Source: Bacteroidota bacterium (GTDB lineage: Bacteria; Bacteroidota; Ignavibacteria; Ignavibacteriales; Melioribacteraceae). Taken from it: a stretch of DNA of 43,618 nt. The position numbers were made by a program, and so were the translations under genes. The DNA lies in contig JAKAMT010000007.1 in NCBI GenBank assembly GCA_021812705.1, positions 1-43,618 on the forward strand, read 5' to 3'. Below are positions 1 through 869 of the stretch, in pieces; the stretch's first letter is position 1, and each line of letters opens with the position of its first letter. The notes under the pieces were generated by a model. It searched no databases, had not been told where the DNA came from, and saw only the letters and a program-made list of their open reading frames with translations.

Positions 1-108
1 TTTGTGTTTCCTGTTATGCTGAGAAATGCGCTGTTCAAGATTTGAGGTACAGCCAATATAATGACGGTTTTTATCGGATTGGAGTATGTAAACAAAGTAA
101 TCCTGCAT
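1..108 (-). CDS. GIY-YIG nuclease family protein, N-terminal part only (runs off window start)
   Basis: Reverse complement reads MQDYFVYILQSDKNRHYIGCTSNLEQRISQHNRK; identical to 343-450 except base 100 vs 442 (synonymous GAT/GAC). Confidence 0.8.
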   Translation of the reverse strand, partial: MQDYFVYILQSDKNRHYIGCTSNLEQRISQHNRKHK

Positions 109-138: not shown

Positions 139-147
139 ATTTAATTG

Positions 148-215
148 TGGGGGCTGAAGGATTCGAACCTACGACCCCTCCGACTTCGTCGGAGTGCTCT
201 GAACCAACTGAGCTA
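148..215 (-). pseudogene. tRNA-Val-like remnant: T arm, D arm and 3' acceptor strand kept, 5' acceptor strand missing, anticodon arm replaced by palindrome CTCCGACGAAGTCGGAG
   Basis: Matches the 490-564 tRNA outside the anticodon arm; 178-194 is a perfect 7-bp/3-nt-loop palindrome; the 5' acceptor strand is replaced by GIY-YIG coding sequence. Confidence 0.85.
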
Positions 216-450
216 GATATTCTTTTGCTTTTAACCAATTCTTCAAACTTTTCAAATACTTTTCTAATTTCATTGCAGAATTTTTATCCACTGTTTTGTA
301 TGAAATCAAAACAGACCATGTTTCGGTTGTACCGGTAAATCCTTTGTGTTTCCTGTTATGCTGAGAAATGCGCTGTTCAAGATTTGAGGTACAGCCAATA
401 TAATGACGGTTTTTATCGGATTGGAGTATGTAAACAAAGTAGTCCTGCAT
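169..450 (-). CDS. GIY-YIG nuclease family protein (93 aa) whose C-terminus is encoded by tRNA-like sequence
   Basis: YVYILQS..HYIGCTSNLEQRISQHN..LEKYLKSLKN is a GIY-YIG signature; the tail AQLVQSTPTKSEGS is the translated D arm and palindrome. Confidence 0.8.
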   Translation of the reverse strand: MQDYFVYILQSDKNRHYIGCTSNLEQRISQHNRKHKGFTGTTETWSVLISYKTVDKNSAMKLEKYLKSLKNWLKAKEYLAQLVQSTPTKSEGS

Positions 451-454
451 AAAT

Positions 455-480
455 AAAAAACCCCAAATTTCTTTGGGGTT
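455..480 (-). terminator. Rho-independent terminator downstream of tRNA-Val (copy 2)
   Basis: Same AACCCCAAA/TTTGGGGTT hairpin plus T-tract, offset by 342 bp from copy 1. Confidence 0.8.
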
Positions 481-489
481 ATTTAATTG

Positions 490-564
490 TGGGGGCTGAA
501 GGATTCGAACCTACGACCCTCTGCTTGTAAGGCAGATGCTCTGAACCAACTGAGCTAAGCCCCC
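490..564 (-). tRNA. tRNA-Val (anticodon TAC)
   Basis: Minus strand GGGGGCTTAGCTCAGTTGGTTCAGAGCATCTGCCTTACAAGCAGAGGGTCGTAGGTTCGAATCCTTCAGCCCCCA folds as a cloverleaf; loop CTTACAA. Confidence 0.92.
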
Positions 565-660
565 GTTAAGGGTAAATCAAAAAGAACTTCAAAATTTGCG
601 CATCAATTATAGAACATTTATGCGTGAGAAACAATACATAAGAAAAATATTTTATAAGAG

Positions 661-733
661 AGCGGGTGACGGGACTCGAACCCGCGACTTTCAGCTTGGG
701 AAGCTAACACTCTACCAACTGAGTTACACCCGC
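661..733 (-). tRNA. tRNA-Gly (anticodon CCC)
   Basis: Minus strand GCGGGTGTAACTCAGTTGGTAGAGTGTTAGCTTCCCAAGCTGAAAGTCGCGGGTTCGAGTCCCGTCACCCGCT; loop TTCCCAA. Confidence 0.92.
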
Positions 734-745
734 ATATTTTTTTAA

Positions 746-807
746 GAACCCGCGACTTTCATCCCGCCCTTGGCGGGATAACACTCTACCAACTGAGTTA
801 CACCCGC
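746..807 (-). pseudogene. tRNA-Gly-like remnant, 5' part up to the T loop, with palindrome TCCCGCCAAGGGCGGGA in place of the anticodon loop
   Basis: Identical to tRNA-Gly from the 5' acceptor through GGGTTC except for the 17-nt palindrome at 762-778; the 3' end is absent. Confidence 0.85.
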
Positions 808-869
808 ATTTTAATAAATAAATCTTCTGAGTAAAATTATATCTGCCGTTCGACTTTATCAAGAATTAT

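Follow-up and report, generated by a model that had tools for sequence, protein, structure and literature searches.

The window, by which the whole analysed stretch of 43,618 nt is meant, probably carries a tandem array of an approximately 342-bp, tRNA-targeting, homing-like element, whose tRNA-derived end is a tRNA copy with a hairpin in place of its anticodon arm. Judged from sequence comparison, the element consists of a hairpin-armed partial tRNA, a terminator-like spacer and a single-domain GIY-YIG nuclease gene, a layout that extends across the order and was seen elsewhere in the phylum. It adjoins many tRNA species and lies on the same strand as the tRNA. No account of hairpin-swapped tRNA copies next to GIY-YIG genes came up in literature searches. 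The features of the window that are relevant here are the following:

1-108, minus strand: GIY-YIG ORF of the following tandem unit (period 342 bp), 5' part, truncated at the contig end
117-138, minus strand: terminator-like hairpin, second copy (tandem unit)
147-215, minus strand: partial tRNA-Val copy composed of tRNA nt 8-28, the hairpin and nt 46-76 (31.8 bits, Rfam tRNA model)
169-450, minus strand: GIY-YIG nuclease ORF, 93 aa, UPF0213/Slx1-like, catalytic residues present
178-194, minus strand: perfect 17-nt hairpin, CTCCGACGAAGTCGGAG in tRNA sense, substituting the anticodon arm (sequence comparison)
459-480, minus strand: terminator-like hairpin with T-run, between tRNA-Val and the ORF start
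489-564, minus strand: intact tRNA-Val(TAC)
660-733, minus strand: intact tRNA-Gly(CCC)
746-808, minus strand: partial tRNA-Gly(CCC) copy composed of nt 1-29, a hairpin and nt 41-56
761-779, minus strand: hairpin ATCCCGCC-AAG-GGCGGGAT within the tRNA-Gly(CCC) copy

Comparison of the window with itself revealed direct repeats (1-177 and 343-519) that are 99% identical. Past the repeat, the first copy continues with CTCCGACTTCGTCGGAG (178-194) and its counterpart with TCTGCTTGTAAGGCAGA (520-536), the native tRNA-Val arm, and beyond these 17 nt the identity is 100% (195-215 vs. 537-557). The swapped segment corresponds to canonical positions 27-43 in ARAGORN numbering, i.e. the entire anticodon arm, and the palindrome, a 7-bp stem with a 3-nt loop, has the same length as the arm it replaces. 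The repeat comparison thus bears out the initial sequence-only reading, according to which a 17-nt palindrome exactly replaces the tRNA-Val anticodon arm between unchanged flanks. CTCCGACTTCGTCGGAG occurs only once in the window and in the genome and was absent from 100 shuffles. The C-terminus of the GIY-YIG ORF (169-450) is encoded by the partial tRNA-Val, and the palindrome lies inside this ORF on the minus strand. The ORF is the sole gene of the 342-bp unit; an integrase gene, the criterion for a tRNA-targeting integrative element, is absent from it. Position 1 of the window is a contig end within the tandem GIY-YIG array, which suggests that such arrays break assemblies.

A second, independent case had been proposed in the window. 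It is real (746-808, tRNA-Gly) but not a swap of equal length, since a 17-nt hairpin, with an additional A-T pair flanking it, stands in for 11 nt (30-40). The same assembly contains another Gly-Val tRNA locus (L041/L191, G000:C212), homologous to window positions 489-830, with two hairpin-bearing tRNA-Gly copies, a tRNA-Val 3' copy with a double hairpin in the T-loop and no GIY-YIG ORF nearby; it may be a strain variant or a duplication.

The assembly of this genome comprises 277 contigs, and the nearest named GIY-YIG loci belong to Melioribacter and Ignavibacteriales MAGs. Nine GIY-YIG matches were found at eight loci (the pair in the window being tandem copies), most of which adjoin tRNA or tmRNA sequence. 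A survey of the tRNAs and the tmRNA of the genome unveiled many with adjoining partial copies broken by short perfect hairpins. An exact 17-for-17 arm swap is likewise present at tRNA-Thr, and arm replacements occur in Asp and Gly copies; inserts elsewhere are located in the T-loop (Met, Val), the D-loop (Ser) and the T-arm (tmRNA). Palindromes were counted by pattern search and stretch by stretch; CCCGCCNNNGGCGGG occurs 20 times vs. 0 for the reversed control, by inspection about half of the times within tRNA copies. Several 3'-end copies with two hairpins in the T arm lie downstream of the tmRNA gene (L026, 405-753), and another hairpin-bearing tmRNA 3'-end copy is found 3' of a GIY-YIG ORF (L004, 60-360 and 690-755). 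tRNA-Phe (L087, 1-410) is followed by a 122-bp tandem array of hairpins, a terminator copy and an apparent inverted T-arm piece. Two GIY-YIG genes away from tRNAs adjoin dispersed palindromic or tandem repeats (L007, 1403-1422, ATTCCCGCGAAAGCGGGAAT; L005, 1720-2100, CTCGTCTCCGCTCGGAATGAC).

The association extends well beyond this genome. A search profile (A1) derived from five tRNA-adjacent nucleases of this type found matches in 129 of the 146 genomes of the order and, in a phylum-wide sample, in 111 of 198, and linkage of such nucleases to tRNAs was seen outside the order too. At 79 of 85 distinct loci a tRNA or tmRNA lies within 500 bp of the nuclease gene, usually at some tens of bp, and in 79 out of 79 cases on the same strand; by chance, such proximity would be expected in roughly 1%, given about 36 tRNAs in 3.2 Mb. 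Because the profile derives from tRNA-adjacent members and the loci sampled were among its best hits, the linkage of 93% holds for this subfamily. Two layouts were recognised in the relatives, for which the data consist of MAGs, short alignments and top-ranked loci. In the first one (Val, Lys, Met, Pro, Asn, Gly and others), the intact tRNA is followed by a spacer, terminator-like in the loci read, the ORF, a D-arm piece, the hairpin and the tRNA 3' half. The second, a mirror image found at many tRNA-Ser loci, consists of a 5' half with D-loop hairpins, the ORF and the intact tRNA. In the loci read, the hairpin sits on the side of the ORF distal to the intact tRNA. In most cases a partial copy has no 5' acceptor strand, and some hairpin-bearing partial tRNAs are not accompanied by an ORF. 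Tandem units with periods of ~310-380 bp occur in the single-contig genomes G003, G025, G035 and G066, so assembly error is not the cause of the arrays.

Partial tRNA copies that keep both the D part and the variable/T part can be compared with one another; of 43 such copies in the order, none has a native anticodon arm, the single row scored as native being a pseudo-tRNA that itself carries the hairpin. Nearly all of them contain a 16-25-nt hairpin with the consensus YYCCGAY...RTCGGRR. The arm hairpins (43 distinct ones) were scored over six stem positions; of the 258 cells, 252 are Watson-Crick pairs, and both-sided changes occur at positions 1, 2, 5 and 6. Canonical positions 27-43 are removed precisely in Val, Lys, Met, Pro and Thr, and the insertion borders are sharp, both at the arm edges (26/27 and 43/44) and in the T-loop (56/57). 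The T-loop inserts, which are found at other loci and differ from the single hairpin of the window, are typically 22-nt double hairpins (11+11 nt) with zero loss of target. Since the hairpin replaces the arm in the comparable copies and its stem covaries, it is best regarded as a standing part of the GIY-YIG/tRNA element, and the earlier view of the copy as an isolated remnant or one-off accident does not stand. Random decay is ruled out by the recurrence and the shuffle controls, in agreement with the earlier argument against decay by point mutation. Template switching, which had been offered as an origin, is not supported, and switching from the native arm was rejected, as the palindromes end at the tRNA borders and do not copy the neighbouring sequence. 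Two candidate functions were rejected as well. A terminator role is at odds with the missing T-run behind the arm hairpins that were read. As the competing acceptor strand remains present, the hairpin does not serve mainly to insulate the intact tRNA against the second 3' half within the transcript.

It is conceivable, though unlikely, that independently mobile REP-like or double-hairpin palindromes land in nonessential hairpin loops, with the tRNA copies as tolerant targets and the GIY-YIG gene as a bystander or general mobilizer. In an order-wide sample of one palindrome per genome from 30 genomes, TCCCGACN2-4GTCGGGA was located less than 1 kb from a tRNA at 11 of 30 loci, with 0 hits for the reversed controls; together with the counts for CCCGCCNNNGGCGGG, this is the enrichment in tRNA-like sequence and beside GIY-YIG ORFs that the sequence-only reading had suggested looking for. 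The other loci of the sample lie mostly in non-tRNA, intergenic-looking sequence. The class is therefore not exclusive to tRNA copies, and the probability of independent mobility remains low without becoming negligible. Hairpins of the TCCCGAC type were observed in the middle of GTCATTCTGA-hairpin-GAAGAATCT or close variants (L242, L255 and L262, around 1501), which look like dispersed repeats. The presence of the same palindromes in such repeats speaks for independent mobility, and so do the loss-free double hairpins at 56/57, the D-loop double hairpins in tRNA-Ser and the hairpin copies without an ORF. However, independent landing should spare some native arms, which was seen in none of the 43 copies, and the hairpin of the arm follows a consensus of its own, at a fixed place beside the ORF.

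A role at the RNA level, in which the hairpin-armed copy acts as a structured RNA (an mRNA 3' end, a processing block or a tRNA-mimic decoy restraining the nuclease), seems rather improbable. The stems covary, the copy still scores as a tRNA and folds stably (z of -2.4 in the window and -4.75 for the tRNA-Thr copy), and the same-strand linkage suggests co-transcription. Imperfect stems with a single mismatch, however, show no preference for G-U (G-T 4, A-C 3, other 4), which, with these small numbers, does not favour selection on RNA. Moreover, most tRNA-Ser loci have the hairpins upstream of the ORF, whereas Val, Lys and Met loci have them downstream of it, so that there is no constant position in an mRNA, and the frequent lack of the 5' acceptor strand likewise argues against an RNA function.

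The history of the nuclease gene was deduced from a tree that includes one nuclease for each locus and tRNA (79 in total) and is based on few columns (about 80). The amino-acid label of the tRNA required 23 changes on this tree vs. at least 46 (mean 49.8) in shuffles, and a host signal was absent from it (genome 74 vs. a shuffle mean of 72.5, family 27 vs. 28.1). The partial 3' halves match a tRNA of their own genome at least as well as that of any other in 32 out of 32 cases (96% vs. 85%). According to these two observations, the nuclease gene passes from host to host within one tRNA type, and the tRNA copy at its flank either derives from the local gene or is kept the same as it. Likeness of the anticodon arms is not clearly the sole cause of nuclease clades being shared between tRNAs: the arms of Val, Lys and Met are alike in some genomes, but in the genome studied here they are no more alike than those of several other tRNAs. 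Comparison of related genomes also uncovered occupied and empty target alleles, one of the criteria for a homing endonuclease. At tRNA-Met, a filled site (G033) and a bare tRNA (G143) match on both flanks and differ by a gain of 344 bp. At tRNA-Val, the filled site (G026) has gained 348 bp relative to the empty one (G042) and, 87 nt upstream, a 5' tRNA fragment. It is the upstream flank of this fragment that corresponds to the empty site, and the native tRNA-Val gene of G026 thus appears to have been split around an intact copy.

Against this background, a purely local segmental amplification of tRNA and nuclease gene, as in SegB escapers, with no movement between genomes or sites, is very improbable. 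It would be in keeping with the tandem arrays of identical units and has a precedent in SegB (PMC13096335), but the nuclease tree tracks tRNA species and not the host, close relatives have empty sites, and no hairpin swap appears in the SegB repeats in the available part of that report (PMC13096335). Chance, mutational decay or an assembly artefact, for which one might cite that the first copy, part of a tandem repeat, adjoins a contig end, can be dismissed in view of the same structure in many independent genomes, single-contig ones included, and of shuffle and reversed-pattern controls close to zero.

The protein encoded in the window matches Pfam PF01541 (E 2.6e-14), and, with few exceptions, the 124 sequences compared share the catalytic residues Y, Y, G, R, H and E. 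Its AlphaFold model (93 aa, pLDDT 87) shows a bare GIY-YIG fold with a C-terminal helix. Matches in the PDB were 1zg2, 1ywl and Slx1; the relationship to UPF0213/Slx1 was supported by sequence (hmmsearch against 1zg2, E 1.3e-10) and by fold (Foldseek, 1zg2 and Slx1 chains, probability 1.00, E 1e-3 to 5e-2). An NCBIfam search gave no family for the nuclease, PHROGs yielded one weak match only, and the protein had no match in the phage collection. The protein thus resembles the UPF0213/YhbQ proteins and the structure-specific nuclease Slx1 in sequence and fold; these are not known as components of tRNA-gene elements. Slx1 acts on branched DNA (entry title, 6seh), and by analogy a structure-directed target is plausible, though unproven.

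In the preferred explanation, that of a homing-like element, the nuclease would nick or cut in the vicinity of the anticodon arm, acting on the native tRNA gene or on a folded single strand of it. The shared tRNA half would then serve for repair or recombination that sets the unit in place, with the intact tRNA kept and the hairpin-armed half displaced by about 340 bp. The hairpin would mark the tRNA-distal end of the element and render that copy useless as a tRNA; most likely it represents either the structured recognition site of the nuclease or an uncleavable form of the target. The duplicated tRNA half might permit both tandem amplification and scarless loss. Several observations count against this explanation: the intact tRNA adjoining the element retains the supposed target arm, no separate DNA-binding domain was recognised in the window protein by domain search or in the AlphaFold model, similar palindromes are found outside tRNA copies, and some hairpin-bearing partial tRNAs have no ORF. 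Tentatively, the elements might even form an undescribed class of mobile elements that is specific for tRNA genes, leaves the tRNA intact and recognises folded single-stranded arms and hairpins rather than duplex sequence; at ~310-380 bp, they would be among the smallest with their own enzyme.

If correct, this explanation accounts for the broken tRNA copies and tiny GIY-YIG genes before or after many tRNA genes of the order, and offers a natural system for studying the tRNA specificity of nuclease lineages together with a covarying hairpin. It would also represent a bacterial chromosomal counterpart of SegB-driven tRNA amplification. As a practical consequence, tRNA finders and gene callers can mis-annotate hairpin-armed copies, and assemblies can break at the arrays.

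The closest precedent in behaviour appears to be SegB, a free-standing GIY-YIG homing endonuclease of T-even phages. It is reported to cut within tRNA genes and to drive the tandem amplification of a 718-bp unit of tRNA-Tyr and segB (PMC13096335). Both systems have a GIY-YIG gene adjoining tRNA genes and tandem repeats of tRNA and nuclease, and the microhomology between the tRNA 5' end and the nuclease 3' end in the SegB system can be counted as a further likeness (PMC13096335). SegB, however, is phage-borne, and the text at hand describes no hairpin replacing a tRNA arm (PMC13096335), whereas the element described here is chromosomal, is associated with many tRNA species and encodes a bare domain of ~85-93 aa. 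REP/RAYT systems resemble it in that a small nuclease gene is associated with short GC-rich palindromes scattered through intergenic DNA, but here the partner is a GIY-YIG protein instead of a Y1/HUH transposase and the palindromes lie within partial tRNA genes. Mitochondrial double-hairpin or repetitive hairpin-forming elements of fungi and sponges are paired short GC hairpins inserted at many sites. Their two adjacent hairpins without target loss are matched by the T-loop inserts (11+11 nt, 56/57) at other loci; the inserts described here differ in residing in bacterial chromosomes, at fixed tRNA positions and coupled to a nuclease gene. Finally, the Ssn family of Neisseria comprises GIY-YIG single-strand-specific nucleases with repeat targets, and shares with the window protein a bare GIY-YIG domain, proposed to act on repeats in single-stranded DNA.
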